Source: an uncultured Mediterraneibacter sp. (GTDB taxonomy: Bacteria; Bacillota; Clostridia; Lachnospirales; Lachnospiraceae). Taken from it: a stretch of DNA of 64,000 nt. The stretch covers positions 62,001-126,000 of the forward strand of contig CALWMN010000004.1 in NCBI GenBank assembly GCA_944381935.1, in the 5' to 3' direction. A program made the position numbers and the translations under genes. Of this stretch, positions 13,527 through 27,741 are shown in pieces. The notes below the pieces were generated by a model. That model ran no database searches. It saw only the letters and a list, made by a program, of their open reading frames with translations, and was not told where the DNA came from. Positions within the stretch are counted from its first letter, which is position 1; every line of letters begins with the position of its first letter.

Positions 13527-14069
13527 TTATCCCATCTGCCTTCCCAGAAAATCAGCCGCACTCTGCGCCACCTTCTGCTCCAGTTCGCCAAATTCTTTCT
13601 TTTCCTCTTTGTTCAGAAGGATGACGGATCCTATCACATCTCCTTCGCAGATGATGGAGCAGATTGCTTCATCCCTGTATTCCCCTGCTTCTGATGTGAT
13701 CCTGATAAATCCGCCTTCCCCTTCCTTTGCAAGTATCTGCCCCCGGTCTTTGAGCAGCTTTTCCAGCTCCTTGCTGATAAACTGGTCCTGCAGCTCTTTC
13801 CTGCCGCTTCCTGACACTGCCACAACCTGGTCCGTATCCGTAATGCACGCCGTGCACCCCAGTGTCTGGGAAAGGCTCTCCGCATACAGCTTCGCCAGAG
13901 TCCCCAGCTCACCGATAGGGGAATATTTCTTAAGGATGATCTCGCCTTCCCGGTCTGTGAAAATTTCCAGAGGGTCGCTCTCTCTGATCCTGAGCGTCCT
14001 CCTGATCTCCTTTGGGATGACAACGCGCCCCAGGTCGTCGATTCTCCGTACTATCCCTGTAGCTTTCAT
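13527..14069 (-). CDS. spoVT: Stage V sporulation regulator SpoVT
   Basis: Forespore transcription factor of 180 residues that tunes sigma-G genes. The N-terminal AbrB-type swapped-hairpin domain begins MKATGIVRRIDDLGRVVIPK and includes EIRRTLRI. The C-terminal GAF-like domain (about 55-178) holds a regulatory pocket. The GAF domain separates SpoVT from AbrB and Abh. GGAGGA precedes the ATG. A good sigma-G-like promoter lies 59 bases upstream, in keeping with forespore expression of the Bacillus gene. Confidence 0.93.
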   Translation of the reverse strand: MKATGIVRRIDDLGRVVIPKEIRRTLRIRESDPLEIFTDREGEIILKKYSPIGELGTLAKLYAESLSQTLGCTACITDTDQVVAVSGSGRKELQDQFISKELEKLLKDRGQILAKEGEGGFIRITSEAGEYRDEAICSIICEGDVIGSVILLNKEEKKEFGELEQKVAQSAADFLGRQMG

Positions 14070-14127: not shown

Positions 14128-14156
14128 TAGTATCTGTAAAACAGAGGAAAATATTC
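14128..14156 (-). promoter_or_regulatory. Candidate sigma-G promoter of spoVT
   Basis: Minus strand GAATA (14156-14152), 17 bases, GATACTA (14134-14128). Against the Bacillus sigma-G consensus (GHATR, 17-18, CATNNTA) only the first -10 base differs. The same GATACTA box recurs upstream of spoVAA. Confidence 0.5.
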
Positions 14157-14251: not shown

Positions 14252-15880
14252 CTACTCCATTACCTTATATTCCTGCGCAATGTTTAACACATGGTCTCCC
14301 ATTCTCTCAAAATCTGTCAGGATCTCAGAGAACACAATGCCGCTCTGCGGTTTGCATTTCCCTTTTTTCAGGCGCTGCATCTGCTTCTTGAAATATTTAT
14401 CCCGCATATTGTCCGTCTTCTGCTCCATAACAACAGCCTGATTAAGCACTGCATCGGCATTGTCGGCGTCCACATCCCTTACATTGTCAAGGGATGCGAT
14501 ACACTGCTTTTTCATCTCCGCAAGTTCTTCCAGCACATTGTCGGAAAATTCCAGATCCCACTTCTTCATATCATCTGCGTACTCTGCGATATTCACTGCA
14601 TGGTCGCCGATCCTCTCCAGATCGCTGATGATTGCATAATATCCGTTGATCTTTCTGGAATCGTCCATCGACATCTCACTTGCCATAAGAGATACAATAT
14701 ACTCCGAGATCCCTTTATTCAGATAATCGATATACTCTTCCCTCTCTTCAACCTTTTTCCGCGATTTCTCATCGTATTTGATCAGCGTATCAAAAGCATC
14801 TGCAATATTCTTTGAGACCATTCCCTGCATCCTTCCCACCTCGTCACGGACCTGGGAAACTGCAACCGCGCTGTTTCCGATGGCGTAGGACGATTCAAAC
14901 GGACGGATATATTTCAGGCGGAGGTCTTCATCATCCGCCTTCTTGCTGTCAGGCAGGATCTTCACCGCGATATCCGCCATCTGTGTCCCGAACGGAAGAA
15001 GGATCAGCGTCGTGACGATATTAAATATCGTATGGGCATTTGCGATCTGCGCCACCGGATCTCCCGGAGTGAGAGACTCAATGAGATGCACATACGGCGT
15101 CGTCATACAGACAATGGTAAAGATGACCGTTCCGATGATGTTGAACATCAGGTGGATGATCGTTGTTCTCTTTGCATTGACCTTCATGCCGATTGAGGCA
15201 AGGACCGCTGTGATACAGGTTCCGATATTCTGCCCGAACAGCACATACACCGCACTGGACAACGGCACAAGTCCTGTGGCGGCAAGAGCCTGGAGAATAC
15301 CGACCGACGCCGAAGAGGACTGGATGATCGCAGTAAATACAGCTCCTACCAGAATCCCGATCAGCGGATTGCTAAACTGTGTCATCAGGTTGATAAACGA
15401 CTCGGAATCCTGGAGAGGTTCCATCGCCGCCCCCATCATATCCATCCCCATGAAGAGAATACCAAGTCCTGCAAAGATACTGCTGATGTGATGAACCTTT
15501 TCATTCTTCACAAACATCATCACAGCCACGCCGATGATTGCGAAAAGCGGGGCGATAGCGCCGATATCAAGTGCGATCAGCTGGCCCGTGATGGTTGTAC
15601 CGATATTGGCTCCCATGATGATCCAGACCGCCTGCTTAAGCGTCATGAGACCGGAATTGACAAATCCCACGACCATAACCGTCGTTGCGGAGGAAGACTG
15701 AATGACCGCTGTAATCGCTGCCCCGACCAGGACCCCCTTGACGCGGTTCGACGTCAGTTTCTCAAGGATCGATTTCATCTTGTTACCAGCGGCAGCCTCC
15801 AGGCCTGTGCTCATCATCTGCATGCCGTAGAGGAATAATGCAAGACCGCCGAGCAAAGAGAGAACATCTGTTATACCCAT
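14252..15880 (-). CDS. Na+/phosphate symporter (NptA/PhoU fusion type)
   Basis: A 542-residue membrane protein. The first 310 residues hold the duplicated Na/Pi cotransporter repeat with glutamine-serine signatures (TAVIQSSSATTVMVVGF and TAIIQSSSASVGILQ) and GANIGTT/GQNIGTC, predicted to form 8-9 helices. The rest is a PhoU-like helical bundle (about 330-540) in the cytoplasm. It is probably an inorganic phosphate importer; some members are low-affinity or regulatory. ATG 15880 follows AAAGGAG; an upstream in-frame start has no such site. A second copy lies at 22.6-24.2 kb. Upstream are a TTGACA/TATAAT pair at odd spacing, a palindrome and possible Pho boxes. Confidence 0.9.
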   Translation of the reverse strand: MGITDVLSLLGGLALFLYGMQMMSTGLEAAAGNKMKSILEKLTSNRVKGVLVGAAITAVIQSSSATTVMVVGFVNSGLMTLKQAVWIIMGANIGTTITGQLIALDIGAIAPLFAIIGVAVMMFVKNEKVHHISSIFAGLGILFMGMDMMGAAMEPLQDSESFINLMTQFSNPLIGILVGAVFTAIIQSSSASVGILQALAATGLVPLSSAVYVLFGQNIGTCITAVLASIGMKVNAKRTTIIHLMFNIIGTVIFTIVCMTTPYVHLIESLTPGDPVAQIANAHTIFNIVTTLILLPFGTQMADIAVKILPDSKKADDEDLRLKYIRPFESSYAIGNSAVAVSQVRDEVGRMQGMVSKNIADAFDTLIKYDEKSRKKVEEREEYIDYLNKGISEYIVSLMASEMSMDDSRKINGYYAIISDLERIGDHAVNIAEYADDMKKWDLEFSDNVLEELAEMKKQCIASLDNVRDVDADNADAVLNQAVVMEQKTDNMRDKYFKKQMQRLKKGKCKPQSGIVFSEILTDFERMGDHVLNIAQEYKVME

Positions 15881-15943
15881 TTTCCCTTTCTCCTTTGTGT
15901 AAACAATCTTAATTATCAGACTCACAGCGCATATTTACGCGCT

Positions 15944-22587: not shown

Positions 22588-24225
22588 CTACCCCCATTTC
22601 ATGATCTCTTCCGCAATATTCCTTGCATGGTCTGATATTCTCTCCAGGCCCACAAGCGCGTCCAGATAAACGATCCCGGCGTCTGTATTGCACTGCCGGT
22701 CCGCCAGTCGCTTCATATGGTCCGAGCGAAGCTGTATCTCCAGCTCATCCGCCCGGCTTTCCTCTTCCACGACTTTCCCGGCCGTCTCACGGCTGCGATC
22801 CTCAAGCGCCTTTATGGCATAGGCATAGCTGTCCGCACAGACCTGTATCATCTCTTTCATCTGCGCGGCTCCGGCGTCTGAAAACCCGGTCTTGTATTCC
22901 TTAAGCGCCTGGGCATACTCTGAAATATTTTCGCAGTAATCGCTGACCCTCTCAATGTCTGACACAATCTGGAGCAGGCCTGCCACCTGTTCATGCTCCT
23001 TCTGATTGATCGAAAGGGCGCTCAGGCGGATCAGATAATCCGTAATCCCCCTGCAAAGTCTGTCAGCCGTATTTTCTTCCTCCCTTATATCCAGAATTGT
23101 CTGCGGACTCTGCGTGAACATAACGTTCTTTGCCTTTTCCATTGTCCTGTTCACGATATTTCCCATGCGACAGACCTCCCTGGCCACAGACTGGAGCGCG
23201 ATCCCCGGTGTCTCAAGCATCCGGTCATCCAGCAGCAGCCTGCTTTCATCGCTTTTAACCTCTTCCTCTCTCTGGATCATTCTCGCAAGCTTGATGATCC
23301 AGTCAGATACCGGGAAGAGTATGACAGTGGTGCCGATATTGAAGATCGTATGGACAGTACTGATCTGCGTCTGCGTGATCATCCCCTCTCCCATTTCCGG
23401 GTTGGCCGCTTTGAAAAACAGGATCGCGGCGACGCTGAAAATGACAGTTCCGATAATATTGAAAAGGAGGTGCATGATCGCTGCCGTCTTGGCAGCCTTC
23501 TTTGCTCCAATGCTGGACATAAGCGCAGTCACGCATGTCCCGATATTCTGTCCCATAATGATATAGACTGCCGCATTAAACGGTACAAGGCCTGCTGCCG
23601 CAAGACTCTGGAGAATCCCCACTGACGCCGACGAACTCTGGATAACCGCAGTCACTACCGCCCCTGCCACAATCCCGAAAAACGGATTATCTCCGAGCAC
23701 AACAAAGATATTGCGGAACCCTTCCGACTCCTGCAGGGGCGATACTGCCGATGACATCGTGGTAATCCCGACAAAGAGAAGGCCAAATCCTATGATAATG
23801 CCTGAGATATCCTTCGCAGACCTTCTTCTCCCTGTGAGCATCACGACCACTCCGATCATAATCGCAATCGGGGCCAGGTTTGCCGGGCTTAAAAATCTTG
23901 CCCACTCCACGCTGGAGACAAGCCACCCCGTTACTGTCGTCCCTATGTTTGCCCCCATGATAACTCCCATGGCCTGGGCCAGATCCATGATCCCCGCATT
24001 CACGAACCCGACTACCATGACTGTGGTCGCCGATGAGCTCTGGATAACTGCCGTGATAAAGGCTCCCAGCAGGACGCCAAAAAACTTGTTCTTTGTCAGC
24101 GCCTCCAAAATCGTCTTCATCCTGCTGCCTGCCACATTTTCAAGCCCCTGCGCCATAATCTGCATCCCGTAGATGAACATTCCCAGGCCACCTGCAAAAG
24201 GGATGATAATACCTGCGTAATCCAT
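22588..24225 (-). CDS. Na+/phosphate symporter, second copy
   Basis: A 545-residue paralogue of the 14.3-15.9 kb symporter with the same layout: two QSSSAT/QSSSAS repeats (TAVIQSSSATTVMVVGF near residue 55; TAVIQSSSASVGILQS near 205), GANIGTT and GQNIGTC, then a PhoU-like helical C-terminal domain (about 335-540). ATG 24225 is chosen because GGAGG lies seven bases upstream. Two TTARC repeats 11 bases apart precede it. The two copies differ enough in the C-terminal half to be old paralogues, not a recent duplication. Confidence 0.9.
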   Translation of the reverse strand: MDYAGIIIPFAGGLGMFIYGMQIMAQGLENVAGSRMKTILEALTKNKFFGVLLGAFITAVIQSSSATTVMVVGFVNAGIMDLAQAMGVIMGANIGTTVTGWLVSSVEWARFLSPANLAPIAIMIGVVVMLTGRRRSAKDISGIIIGFGLLFVGITTMSSAVSPLQESEGFRNIFVVLGDNPFFGIVAGAVVTAVIQSSSASVGILQSLAAAGLVPFNAAVYIIMGQNIGTCVTALMSSIGAKKAAKTAAIMHLLFNIIGTVIFSVAAILFFKAANPEMGEGMITQTQISTVHTIFNIGTTVILFPVSDWIIKLARMIQREEEVKSDESRLLLDDRMLETPGIALQSVAREVCRMGNIVNRTMEKAKNVMFTQSPQTILDIREEENTADRLCRGITDYLIRLSALSINQKEHEQVAGLLQIVSDIERVSDYCENISEYAQALKEYKTGFSDAGAAQMKEMIQVCADSYAYAIKALEDRSRETAGKVVEEESRADELEIQLRSDHMKRLADRQCNTDAGIVYLDALVGLERISDHARNIAEEIMKWG

Positions 24226-24332
24226 AATACCCTCCATCTATGATCGCTTACATAGCTTATGCAGAGAAGCACGCATCCGTACAACCCTGCATTTTAACGA
24301 TACCATTATCATCCCCAAAAAACAACAATATC

Positions 24333-24350: not shown

Positions 24351-24707
24351 TTATTTCTTCATTTTGGGGTCGAAAATAAAGGACGCGATATATCCGAAGA
24401 TGAGCGCCGCGGAAATGCCGACCGCGCTTGCCTTAAATCCTCCCATAAAGATACCGATAAAGCCGCTTTCATCAACCGCCTCCTTCACTCCCTTCCACAG
24501 TGTGTTCCCGAATCCAAGCAGGGGAACGCTCGCCCCGGATTTTGCGAACTCTTTAAAAGGCTCGTAAAAGCCTGCAAACCCGAGCACTGCTCCAGTGCAT
24601 ACAAGCAGCACCATGACGCGTCCCGGCATCATCTTTGTCCTGTCTAGCAGAATCTGCACTACTGCACAGACTGCACCTCCTATGACAAATGAAACGAGAT
24701 AGTCCAT
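24351..24707 (-). CDS. spoVAE: Stage V sporulation protein AE (SpoVAEb type)
   Basis: Small inner forespore membrane protein of 118 residues, part of the SpoVA channel for dipicolinic acid uptake and release. It starts MDYLVSFVIGGAVCAVVQ, has FVIGGAVCAVVQILLD, a loop with SVPLLGFGNTLWKGV and a C-terminal helix ending IFDPKMKK, all typical of SpoVAEb. GGAGG lies just before ATG 24707. It follows spoVAD by 20 bases and would share its divergent promoter. Confidence 0.9.
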   Translation of the reverse strand: MDYLVSFVIGGAVCAVVQILLDRTKMMPGRVMVLLVCTGAVLGFAGFYEPFKEFAKSGASVPLLGFGNTLWKGVKEAVDESGFIGIFMGGFKASAVGISAALIFGYIASFIFDPKMKK

Positions 24708-24727
24708 TCTTTCCTCCTCCTTTTCCA

Positions 24728-25738
24728 TCAGCAGTGCTCCAGCACAATTCCGTGTGCAATTCCCGGCACGCTCGCCCCTTCGTTATAACTGACCGTGGAC
24801 ATAAGTGCTCCGGTGGGAACAAATAAAACCCTCTTCCATTCTCCCTTTTCGATCTTTGGCAGGATAAACGAGGCAAGCGTTACGGCAGCGCATCCACATC
24901 CGCTTCCCCCTGCATGGGTATCCTGTGTCTCCTGGTCAAAGATCGTCATCCCGCAGTCAAGATGCTTCTTTTTGATGTCATACCCTTTCCCCTTTACAAG
25001 GTCAAAAAGTATGGATTGTCCCACATACCCCAGGTCTCCCGTCACAATACGGTCATAGTCTTCCTCACTTCTTCCCGTATCTGCAAAATTCCTTACGATT
25101 GTGTCCATGGCTGCCGGAGCCATGCAGGCTCCCATATTCTGGGAATCTTTGAGACCGTAGTCCACGATCTTTCCTACTGTTATACCGGCGATCCTTACAT
25201 GGCTTTTCACATCCCCTACCACAAACGCCCCGCTCCCTGTGACGGTCCAGTGGGCAGATAACGGTCTCTGGCTGGCATATCCCAGGGGAAATCGAAATTC
25301 CTTTTCCGCGCTCCCAAAATGGCTTGACGTCACTGCCAGCATGTATTTCCCATATCCGGCTGCAGTGCTCATCGCCGCCAGGGCAAGCGCTTCTCCTGAT
25401 GTAGAACATGCACCGTAAAGACCGAACATGGGAATGTGAAGCGCTTCAACTCCCATTGATGTTGCAATTCCCTGCCTCAGCAGATCCCCGCCGAACAGAT
25501 ACCGGACTTCCTCCGCCTTAATATGCGCCTTTCCCAGTGCCAGTACACATGCCTCTTTCTGCATATTACTCTCCGCTTCTTCCCAGGTCGTCGCCCCAAA
25601 GAGATCGTCCTGATTGGTCATATCAAAAAATTTTGCCAGCGGGCCTTCCGACTCCTTGCTCCCGACAACTGATGCGGCGCTGACGATATACGGAGCGTGC
25701 GCAAACGCAAGGCTCTGGCTTCCTCTTATCTGTTCCAT
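24728..25738 (-). CDS. spoVAD: Stage V sporulation protein AD
   Basis: A 336-residue protein with a thiolase/ketoacyl-synthase-like fold that binds dipicolinic acid on the outer side of the forespore membrane. Visible features are MFGLYGACSTSGEALALAAM around residue 103, GDLGYVGQSILFDL, and the glycine-rich DTHAGGSGCGCAAVTLAS near the end. GAGGAAA precedes the ATG. It is normally directly downstream of spoVAC in the same direction. Here spoVAC lies head-to-head with it across 173 bases containing two candidate sigma-G promoters. Confidence 0.95.
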   Translation of the reverse strand: MEQIRGSQSLAFAHAPYIVSAASVVGSKESEGPLAKFFDMTNQDDLFGATTWEEAESNMQKEACVLALGKAHIKAEEVRYLFGGDLLRQGIATSMGVEALHIPMFGLYGACSTSGEALALAAMSTAAGYGKYMLAVTSSHFGSAEKEFRFPLGYASQRPLSAHWTVTGSGAFVVGDVKSHVRIAGITVGKIVDYGLKDSQNMGACMAPAAMDTIVRNFADTGRSEEDYDRIVTGDLGYVGQSILFDLVKGKGYDIKKKHLDCGMTIFDQETQDTHAGGSGCGCAAVTLASFILPKIEKGEWKRVLFVPTGALMSTVSYNEGASVPGIAHGIVLEHC

Positions 25739-25811
25739 ATGGTTTCCTCATTTCTTTGCTTTACCTGTTATTATCCCGCAGGATAGTACAAATATACATA
25801 GATCAGCCTGC

Positions 25812-25841
25812 TTACATGAAGCCGCCTTTCCATGTATATTC
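25812..25841 (-). promoter_or_regulatory. Candidate sigma-G promoter toward spoVAD-spoVAE
   Basis: Minus strand GAATA (25841-25837), 18 bases, CATGTAA (25818-25812), one mismatch to CATNNTA, 74 bases before the spoVAD ATG. Its -35 overlaps that of the rightward promoter. Confidence 0.4.
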
Positions 25842-25863
25842 TCCCCGTTTTTTTCAAATACTA
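25834..25863 (+). promoter_or_regulatory. Candidate sigma-G promoter toward spoVAC
   Basis: Plus strand GTATA (25834-25838), 18 bases, AATACTA (25857-25863), one mismatch to CATNNTA, about 50 bases before the spoVAC ATG. Confidence 0.42.
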
Positions 25864-25911
25864 TCCATAATCGGCAGACAGACCGGTATCAGAAAAACCA
25901 GGAGGCAACAT

Positions 25912-26373
25912 ATGGATAAAATACAGCGCATGAAACAGGAAAAAGAATATCAGGACTATGTGAAAAAAAAGACGCCCGTCCACAATGTGTGGCTGAATAT
26001 GGCAAAAGCATTTCTCGTGGGCGGCCTGATCTGTTTTATCGGACAGGTAATCTATCATTACTGTGAACTCCAGAATCTCTCTGCAGACGACAGCAGCAGC
26101 TGGACTTCTCTTTGCCTTGTCCTTCTCAGTGTAATACTGACGGGAACCGGAATCTATCCGAAGATTGCAAAATGGGGAGGAGCGGGAGCACTTGTGCCGA
26201 TCACAGGTTTTGCCAACTCTGTAGCGGCGCCTGCGATCGAATATAAAAAAGAAGGACAGGTCTTTGGAATCGGATGTAAAATCTTCACGATCGCCGGCCC
26301 TGTCATTCTCTATGGTATTTTCACAAGCTGGCTTCTCGGTTTCCTCTACTGGATATGGACGCTGGTACAATAA
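25912..26373 (+). CDS. spoVAC: Stage V sporulation protein AC, inverted within the spoVA locus
   Basis: A 153-residue membrane protein, the mechanosensitive core of the SpoVA dipicolinate channel. The family segments GGLICFIGQ, LTGTGIYPKIAKWGGAGALVPITGFANS and AAPAIEYKKEGQVFGIGCKIFTIAGPV are all present, and the gene looks fully intact. AGGAGG precedes the ATG; a longer in-frame start lacks a site and would overlap the promoter. In Bacillus and most clostridia spoVAC lies between spoVAB and spoVAD on the same strand. Here it occupies that place but points the other way, with its own promoter and terminator. Confidence 0.95.
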   Translation: MDKIQRMKQEKEYQDYVKKKTPVHNVWLNMAKAFLVGGLICFIGQVIYHYCELQNLSADDSSSWTSLCLVLLSVILTGTGIYPKIAKWGGAGALVPITGFANSVAAPAIEYKKEGQVFGIGCKIFTIAGPVILYGIFTSWLLGFLYWIWTLVQ

Positions 26374-26410
26374 AAAGGGAAAAGGATTCTGGGCTGAAAC
26401 CCGGCAAACC

Positions 26411-26454
26411 AAAAGACAGAAAACTGTTCAGGAAACAGTTCTCTGTCTTTTTTT
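26411..26454. terminator. Bidirectional terminator between convergent spoVAC and spoVAB
   Basis: AAAGACAGA (26412-26420) pairs with TCTGTCTTT (26442-26450), extended inward by AACTGTT/AACAGTT. A T-run follows on the plus strand and CTTTTGG on the minus strand. Confidence 0.85.
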
Positions 26455-26487
26455 ATGGTCTGCCAAAACACAGGTTTCCGATCAGAG

Positions 26488-26904
26488 CTACCACCCTTTG
26501 AAAAAGAAAAGGCATGCTCCCGCTCCCTTTCCCACCGCCATGCTTATGACAAATGCCGTGAGATACCGTACGATCCTCACCCTCCGTATGAAAACCGGGA
26601 ACACATTGAGGATCTCCGCCAGAGCCATTGCCCAGCATCCCACAAAAATTCCGGAAAGGATGCCGAAAACGGCCAGCAAAGCATCCCCTAGGGGTATTCC
26701 TATATGGAACACATACAGGATGTTCCCCGTGATCCCTCCCAGAGCCACACAGTCTTCATAGAACAGGATCTTATCCCCCGTATGGGTTCTGTCGGCAAAA
26801 TCAGCCACAACCCCCAGCTCTACGATAAAAGAAAACAGTCCCCCGGCTACCGCCGTGCCTGCGCTAAGCCCGATCAGTGCCAGAAGCGCCTGAGCTGCCC
26901 ACAT
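26488..26904 (-). CDS. spoVAB: Stage V sporulation protein AB
   Basis: A 138-residue membrane protein with four hydrophobic segments. Family features are GTAVAGGLFSFIVELGVV near the start, the YEDCVALGGITGNILYVF loop and a WAMALAEILNVFPVFIRR helix. The second ATG (26904) is preferred because AAAGGAG lies nine bases before it and would overlap the outer ATG. It overlaps the end of spoVAA by about 41 bases. In the usual operon spoVAC would follow; here a terminator does. Confidence 0.9.
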   Translation of the reverse strand: MWAAQALLALIGLSAGTAVAGGLFSFIVELGVVADFADRTHTGDKILFYEDCVALGGITGNILYVFHIGIPLGDALLAVFGILSGIFVGCWAMALAEILNVFPVFIRRVRIVRYLTAFVISMAVGKGAGACLFFFKGW

Positions 26905-27529
26905 CGAGTTCATCTCCTTTCCTCGCGGAATCCTCGATTAAAGTCGTCTGAATATCGTTTTCGTAAACCCTCATCTGGATCTCCATAGGTGTTGGGTCCA
27001 CCGTAAATCTCTTTTTCCCGAAGTGGTTGAAAAAGATCAGGATACCCGCCGTGATTCCAATCGAATATGTGATTTCCAGTATTGTAAATCCATCTGACTG
27101 CTGCCCTGTAACCAGTTCATAGATCTGTCCGAACAGTTTTGTGACATCAACGTCGTTATTAAACGCCATTATGGAAAATGACGCTCCGAAAAATGTCACC
27201 GCAGCAACGAACACTGCCTTTAAGGTATGCCAGATTATCCCGGGAGTTTTCTGGTCTTCACATGTAATGATAATGTCCGTCTCCCCAAGATTCTGCACCT
27301 CCAGCTCCGGATAGTTTTCATGGATGCAGGATATGATCCTGAGTATGGATACCACGTATCTCTGCCTGCCGGATTTTGGGATCTTCATAATCTTCAATGC
27401 CTTTACCTTCGGCGGAACCGTTTTATCCGCACATTCTACGGAAAGAATATCCCCCAGTGTAACGTCCCTCTTTGTAACCTCCACATCCCGGTCTCCTTTG
27501 ATATACAGTATGCTTCTGCTACCCGACAT
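26864..27529 (-). CDS. spoVAA: Stage V sporulation protein AA
   Basis: A 221-residue SpoVA subunit with a soluble N-terminal region (about residues 1-120; LYIKGDRDVEV at the start, QNLGETDIIITCEDQ) and two later helices (about 130-150 and 172-190), ending in a charged tail with RMRVYENDIQTTLIEDSA-like residues. GGGGGT precedes the ATG. Its first codons lie inside the end of the upstream microprotein gene, so translation of the two is probably coupled. Confidence 0.92.
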   Translation of the reverse strand: MSGSRSILYIKGDRDVEVTKRDVTLGDILSVECADKTVPPKVKALKIMKIPKSGRQRYVVSILRIISCIHENYPELEVQNLGETDIIITCEDQKTPGIIWHTLKAVFVAAVTFFGASFSIMAFNNDVDVTKLFGQIYELVTGQQSDGFTILEITYSIGITAGILIFFNHFGKKRFTVDPTPMEIQMRVYENDIQTTLIEDSARKGDELDVGSSGASGTDRA

Positions 27530-27674
27530 TCTGTTCGACCCCCGGCGCCTTGATGAGGAACCCCTCGCTTCCCTGCTGCCTGGAAAAGCTCAGATTATAA
27601 AGGATTCCTATGACGACTGCTGCCAGAACAACTGTAAGCAGACAGATCCATACTTTTTTTCTGCCGTCTTTCAT
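27519..27674 (-). CDS. Unannotated single-helix microprotein between sigF and spoVAA
   Basis: A 51-residue ORF: charged N-terminus MKDGRKKV, one strong membrane helix (about residues 8-28, WICLLTVVLAAVVIGILYN), then a polar tail FSRQQGSEGFLIKAPG. AAAGGA lies 11 bases before the ATG; an in-frame ATG seven codons upstream (27695) would fall too close to the predicted start point. The TAG stop overlaps the first codons of spoVAA (27529). A sigma-G-like promoter lies just upstream. I do not recognise the family. Position and topology suggest a forespore membrane partner of SpoVA, which is inference. Confidence 0.65.
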   Translation of the reverse strand: MKDGRKKVWICLLTVVLAAVVIGILYNLSFSRQQGSEGFLIKAPGVEQNVG

Positions 27675-27711: not shown

Positions 27712-27741
27712 TAGTATCTGGATTCATGACGGAAAATATGT
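27712..27741 (-). promoter_or_regulatory. Candidate sigma-G promoter of the microprotein-spoVAA-spoVAB unit
   Basis: Minus strand ACATA (27741-27737), 18 bases, GATACTA (27718-27712). The -10 box is identical to that proposed for spoVT. It lies between the sigF stop and the microprotein. Confidence 0.4.

Follow-up and report, generated by a model that had tools for sequence, protein, structure and literature searches.

The window analysed here, a stretch of 64,000 nucleotides of contig CALWMN010000004.1 from an uncultured Mediterraneibacter sp. (Lachnospiraceae), carries a spoVA locus, whose products include subunits of the SpoVA dipicolinate channel. On the minus strand the order is spoIIAB, sigF, a small open reading frame (ORF), spoVAA, spoVAB, the slot of spoVAC, spoVAD and spoVAE, and spoVAC alone lies within its slot on the plus strand, an arrangement shared by a clade of related genera. 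SpoVAC, SpoVAD and SpoVAE(b) are all present and intact, and the locus is not a single collinear spoVA operon, spoVAC being on the opposite strand.

The spoVA locus of the window

The genes and the hairpin at the locus are as follows.

24351–24728, minus: spoVAE (spoVAEb type); TIGR02839 125.7 bits, slightly under the cut-off of 131.1; PF03862 118.2 bits
24728–25738, minus: spoVAD; NF006160 466.1 bits (cut-off 402); PF07451 477.8 bits
25912–26373, plus: spoVAC, membrane subunit of the SpoVA dipicolinate channel; TIGR02838 169.1 bits (cut-off 164); PF03862
26488–26913, minus: spoVAB; PF13782 133.3 bits; no NCBIfam match
26864–27529, minus: spoVAA; PF12164 103.2 bits; no NCBIfam match
26411–26451, no strand assigned: terminator-like hairpin separating the convergent spoVAC and spoVAB; 18-nt arms, 94%
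27519–27674, minus: small membrane ORF of 51 amino acids, conserved, between sigF and spoVAA
27745–28461, minus: sigF (context); TIGR02885 335.4 bits

The matches to PF03862, PF07451, PF13782 and PF12164 all exceed their gathering scores, and spoVAD scores 403.7 bits with TIGR02845, slightly under the cut-off of 411.8. An initial annotation, made from the letters of the window, had spoVAC as the only plus-strand gene, at its normal place among minus-strand spoVAA, spoVAB, spoVAD and spoVAE, with a ribosome site of its own and a divergent spacer before spoVAD; gene calls and family models agree with this placement, AGGAGG stands 6 nt upstream of the spoVAC ATG, and the spoVAC–spoVAD spacer measures 173 nt. 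The third-position GC skew of spoVAC (−0.10) is opposite to that of the other four spoVA genes (+0.08 to +0.22), the plus strand of the region having negative skew throughout, which fits an old flip.

The genes spoVAC and spoVAB converge, with 114 nt between their 3' ends, and the bidirectional terminator proposed for this interval was borne out in part: the hairpin at 26411–26451 folds on both strands (z −3.15 on plus, −5.72 on minus), but the T run after it is shorter on minus (four residues) than on plus (seven), and the hairpin is absent from the output of a simple terminator scan. Nor is a terminator general at this position, since in three other loci (L104, L110 and L114) the stop codons of spoVAC and spoVAB abut with no spacer, so that the two transcripts probably overlap there. 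As to the small ORF at 27519–27674, it has no Pfam match above cut-off, and of 37 further loci listed most have a similar ORF between sigF and spoVAA.

Orientation of spoVAC across genomes

The comparison of the locus across Lachnospiraceae that the initial annotation had proposed revealed an inversion common to a clade. Of 24 Mediterraneibacter genomes, 23 have spoVAC and spoVAD divergent, and in the remaining one the contig begins at spoVAC; one of the genomes with inverted spoVAC is a single contig (G018, L077). In a 54-contig draft such as the window genome, an assembly or binning error might be suspected, but the same arrangement in 23/24 congeneric genomes, one of them single-contig, and in named isolates makes such an error extremely improbable. 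In the 24 congeneric genomes spoVAA is always present (24/24), often far from spoVAC.

Scoring of 81 rows (the window and 80 named loci) gave 63 inverted, 15 collinear and 3 unscorable, 60 of the inverted rows being scored by spoVAD, one having spoVAA–spoVAB turned as well, and two being scored by spoVAB alone. The named loci and those with G handles are partly the same genomes, so that these counts are not independent; one locus, L087, was left out, its match being spoVAE. The inverted side includes Muricomes intestini, Schaedlerella arabinosiphila, Faecalicatena orotica and [Ruminococcus] torques ATCC 27756, and the collinear side Dorea, Coprococcus comes, Claveliimonas bilis, Sporofaciens musculi and Faecalicatena contorta. 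The order in the 15 collinear loci is TPR-spoIIA-sigF-AA-AB-AC-AD-AE, with spoVAD about 8 kb off in two of them and about 0.8 kb off in one. Locus L146 has spoVAA–spoVAB reversed too, so that AC-AA-AB share one strand between spoVAD and sigF.

On the concatenated tree, orientation requires one change, with a Shimodaira–Hasegawa-like approximate likelihood ratio test (SH-aLRT) support of 99. The spoVAC tree also gives one change (support 80), placing the inverted rows together beside collinear sister genera. All trees come from quick searches with SH-aLRT as their only support measure, and 41/81 rows of the concatenated tree have under half of the columns filled. The outgroup state is collinear, since 5/5 loci examined outside the family but within the order have the collinear arrangement, and since, among the 15 other-family genomes with matches, spoVAC and a spoVAE-like gene lie on the same contig and strand in 12, on different contigs in 3, and on opposite strands in none.

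These trees bear also on whether the gene is a replacement instead, another copy having been inserted in reverse orientation into the slot left by a lost spoVAC. Insertions at the spoVA locus are common, and the single-gene trees disagree in part (one change for spoVAC, two each for spoVAD and sigF); nevertheless, the spoVAC tree alone unites the inverted rows beside collinear sister genera, and the window genome has only one spoVAC match, so that we consider replacement very unlikely, although an ancient replacement by the gene of a close relative would leave the same picture as an inversion. Two spoVAC matches were found in the congeneric genome G014 (C10:3801-4256 and C146:13010-13465; 84% and 78%), perhaps through contamination, which is estimated at 5% in that genome.

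The initial annotation had further envisaged an invertible segment with inverted repeats at 25.7 and 26.4 kb, in which case the window would represent one state of a phase-variable switch. The flipped gene itself speaks for such a switch, as a short stretch in opposite orientation is what phase-variable segments have in common with this locus, and nothing more does. Neither repeats nor a mixed state were seen here: the repeat search of the window found no inverted repeats flanking spoVAC, its two spacers are complementary over at most 7 nt (mean of shuffles 7.0), the corresponding length in 12 other loci measured is 5–9 nt and never above the shuffled maximum, and 63/63 labelled rows of the clade share one orientation. 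With spoVAC divergent in 23/24 congeneric genomes, a switch is scarcely credible.

Forespore-type promoter-like sites

Forespore (sigma-F/sigma-G) promoters have a −35 element like GNATA and a −10 element like NATAMTA, spaced by 17–18 nt. Sites of this type were scored in two ways, first by a consensus score weighted according to the known consensus (threshold 14.5, picked after a preliminary scan), and second by a matrix whose sole training set was the operon promoter as found in 13 collinear genomes (threshold 8, fixed together with the first use of the matrix). First-order Markov redraws served as nulls for the sites, and plain shuffles in the preliminary scan and the repeat test. Three sites precede spoVA genes in the window.

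25834–25863, plus, before spoVAC: GTATA (25834–25838)-N18-AATACTA (25857–25863); matrix 14.7, second best of the window
25769–25797, minus, before spoVAD–spoVAE: GTATA (25797–25793)-N17-GATAATA (25775–25769); matrix 19.3, best of the window
27712–27741, minus, before the small ORF, spoVAA and spoVAB: ACATA-N18-GATACTA; matrix 11.5

Both sites in the spoVAC–spoVAD spacer have the sigma-F/sigma-G consensus form in −35, −10 and spacing, and a matrix built from collinear operon promoters gives these two its highest scores in the window. Over both strands of the 64 kb, the matrix reaches at least 11 at just five sites, namely the spoVAC site, the spoVAD site, the spoVA operon site at 27741, a spoVT site at 14156, and one at 14404, which is antisense within ORF 14252–15925. 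In Clostridioides difficile the consensus is similar to that of Bacillus subtilis, according to the part of PMC3789822 that deals with it. The site before spoVT (13527–14069, minus) reads GAATA-N17-GATACTA at 14128–14156 (minus; matrix 11.7).

The two promoter strings quoted by the initial annotation both occur in the spacer, and that for spoVAC (GTATA-N18-AATACTA) is the site listed above, one of the only five in the window to reach 11. Its proposed spoVAD promoter (25841–25812) scores −5.5, no better than background, a score of at least −5.5 being found at 1620/255824 window positions; and if 25797–25769 is the spoVAD promoter, the −35 boxes, rather than overlapping, have 36 nt between them. 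A sigma-70 reading of the spacer was rejected, with one 9-of-12 site (25811–25840, plus) and a count for the region of 3 versus 4.6 in shuffles.

Across loci, the consensus score finds the site upstream of spoVAC in 55/63 inverted loci (5% in redrawn sequence) versus 0/15 collinear ones (redrawn 1%), and the site upstream of spoVAD in 44/61 inverted loci (redrawn 6%) versus 3/15 collinear ones (redrawn 5%). The three collinear exceptions (L138, L177 and L178) have spoVAD some 0.8 to 8 kb from spoVAC. The matrix is passed before spoVAC by 50/63 inverted and 0/15 collinear loci, and before spoVAD by 31/61 and 1/15, respectively, so that the sites go together with the break. No site lies in the 200 nt upstream of spoVAA (0/25 and 0/15 loci); the spoVA site precedes the small ORF instead, as it does at 27519–27674 in the window, and reaches the 14.5 threshold in 12/13 collinear and 16/24 inverted loci, the window's own site (12.2) being below it.

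The same association appears in the wider family, in genomes where spoVAD is detached from spoVAC: a site of at least 14.5 precedes spoVAD in 23/40 of these versus 0/20 with the two genes adjacent (Fisher p 4e-6), and the matrix is passed in 16/40 versus 0/20 (p 5e-4), redrawn sequence predicting 1.3 and 0.3. This sample took 20/20 separated-collinear, 20/35 different-contig and 20/59 adjacent genomes; the different-contig genomes may be mere assembly breaks, and one of those 20 (G188) is near the inverted clade.

Probable break-up of the spoVA operon

With its gene order, its single change on the concatenated tree, its conserved promoter-like sites and its lack of flanking repeats, the window locus looks like operon break-up, an event of a known kind, and like neither a switchable element nor a new system. 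Operons reportedly break up, with parts acquiring promoters of their own ('The Life-Cycle of Operons'); unlike that general case, the gene here is flipped within its slot, with one inferred origin and promoter evidence site by site. In the predicted course of events, spoVAC alone was inverted long ago, and the inversion had become fixed before Mediterraneibacter and its neighbouring genera diverged. The inversion would have split the spoVA operon into smallORF-spoVAA-spoVAB, spoVAC and spoVAD-spoVAE, removing spoVAC, as well as spoVAD-AE behind it, from the operon promoter. A working channel would then require forespore transcription of each part, and promoter-like sites precede each part in most loci. 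Because each unit has a site of the sigma-F/sigma-G class, the subunits should all be made in the forespore and there assemble the usual dipicolinate channel. We regard it as quite probable that the locus represents such an old and fixed break-up of the spoVA operon with forespore-type promoters regained, the use of the sites, forespore expression and a normal channel being presumed, and it is likely that the split spoVA genes form separate transcription units. The suggestion of a one-gene inversion with two new forespore promoters accordingly stands as to a single clade-fixed event with two added sites, its spoVAD promoter having been misplaced.

The locus resembles the spoVA operon of Clostridia and Bacilli in its protein families, its sigF neighbour and its forespore-type promoter-like site, and differs from it in that spoVAC is on the opposite strand and there are apparently three units instead of one operon. 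In B. subtilis, spoVAC, spoVAD and spoVAEb are named in a passage of PMC13059800 as the operon's three genes that are essential for dipicolinate accumulation. In C. difficile, spoVAC-AD-AE is given in the relevant part of PMC3789822 as an operon in the sigma-G regulon, so that unchanged timing is the plain expectation. A literature search over titles and abstract openings found no description of a spoVAC inversion.

Several observations weigh against this break-up with regained promoters. In the single-gene trees of spoVAD and sigF, two orientation changes are needed in each, the starred branches forcing just one. Within the inverted clade the consensus score is below threshold before spoVAC in 8/63 loci and before spoVAD in 17/61, and only the 50/63 and 31/61 given above pass the matrix; upstream stretches in collinear loci are mostly coding, which leaves fewer chance matches there. 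Detached spoVAD lacks a site in 17/40 genomes. Five rearranged lineages (G158, G313, G172, G127 and G054) include only one, G127, with matrix scores of at least 8 (spoVAD 8.6, spoVAC 10.9), and in G054, where spoVAC alone is flipped, a matrix site precedes neither spoVAC nor spoVAD. The two genes for small acid-soluble spore proteins, taken as a positive control, show no strong site (matrix 7.9 and −4.1), and a strict pattern finds 7 matches in the whole genome versus 1 for a reversed-pattern control, two of them in the spoVAC–spoVAD spacer, one at spoVT and four before ORFs inspected by eye only.

A survey of the family with one genome per genus gave 125 genomes with both spoVAC and spoVAD among the matches listed (149 rows each; positives 195 and 190 of 299). 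In this set, the two genes are adjacent and collinear in 59, collinear but at least 0.3 kb apart in 20, on different contigs in 35, divergent in 9 and otherwise far apart in 2; their separation is therefore common in the family and not peculiar to the window locus. Outside the main inverted clade, G054 flips spoVAC alone, and G172, G158 and G313 have the AA-AB-AC block divergent from spoVAD. Such rearrangements are alike in having spoVAC apart from, or divergent to, spoVAD, and unlike in falling outside the main clade on the wider tree, on which five changes are seen in all, some on weak or long branches. A collinear Hespellia metagenome-assembled genome (L138), with spoVAD about 8 kb off behind a site of its own, falls among collinear rows in the 81-row tree and beside inverted rows in the wider tree, and might represent an intermediate step. 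Loci L091, L092, L093, L094 and L095 show spoVAC-alone or AA-AB-AC-block rearrangements in other genera, mostly without a matrix match before spoVAD.

These frequencies are relevant to an adaptive origin, in which separate promoters would give SpoVAC a timing or amount different from SpoVAD and SpoVAE and so alter channel assembly. Retention of the inversion in 63/63 labelled clade rows would accord with this, as would the composition of the first −10 base, which differs between the spoVAC sites (G 39, A 19, C 3, T 2; 63/63 strong) and the spoVAD sites (G 29, C 19, A 4, T 3; 55/61 strong). However, all units keep the same class of site, and break-up is so frequent in the family, with just 59/125 genomes from the matches listed adjacent and collinear, that it suggests tolerance; we consider an adaptive inversion unlikely.

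A related proposal, that the inversion was accompanied by a shift in regulation moving the subunits towards earlier or dual sigma-F/sigma-G expression, with units tuned separately, we hold to be rather doubtful. It derives from the unmoved operon promoter, whose first −10 base is C in 11/13 collinear loci and G or A in 22/24 inverted ones, resembling the spoVT site. A scan found sites upstream of spoVT, a few of them weak, in 16/16 genomes of the genus and in 28/28 other genera, and the first −10 base is G or A in 15/16 and 23/28, respectively; these 28 genera were a manual choice of lineages outside the inverted clade, some of which (for example G178, G286 and G049) have an unsettled spoVAC–spoVAD order. 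In C. difficile, spoVT is stated in a part of PMC3789822 to respond to both sigma-F and sigma-G.

If the break-up with regained forespore-type promoters is correct, spoVAC, spoVAD and spoVAE no longer form one transcript unit in this clade of gut bacteria, although balanced production of their products would be expected. The promoter-like sites and the collinear sister genera turn the clade into a natural test of whether a membrane complex depends on its genes sharing an operon, and sporulation operons in Lachnospiraceae will be misread if gene order is the only guide.

Two genes resembling Na/Pi cotransporters also lie in the window, one at 22588–24237 (minus; TIGR00704) and one at 14252–15925 (minus; named by eye only). 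The former comes next after spoVAE, here and in many relatives with spoVAC in either orientation.

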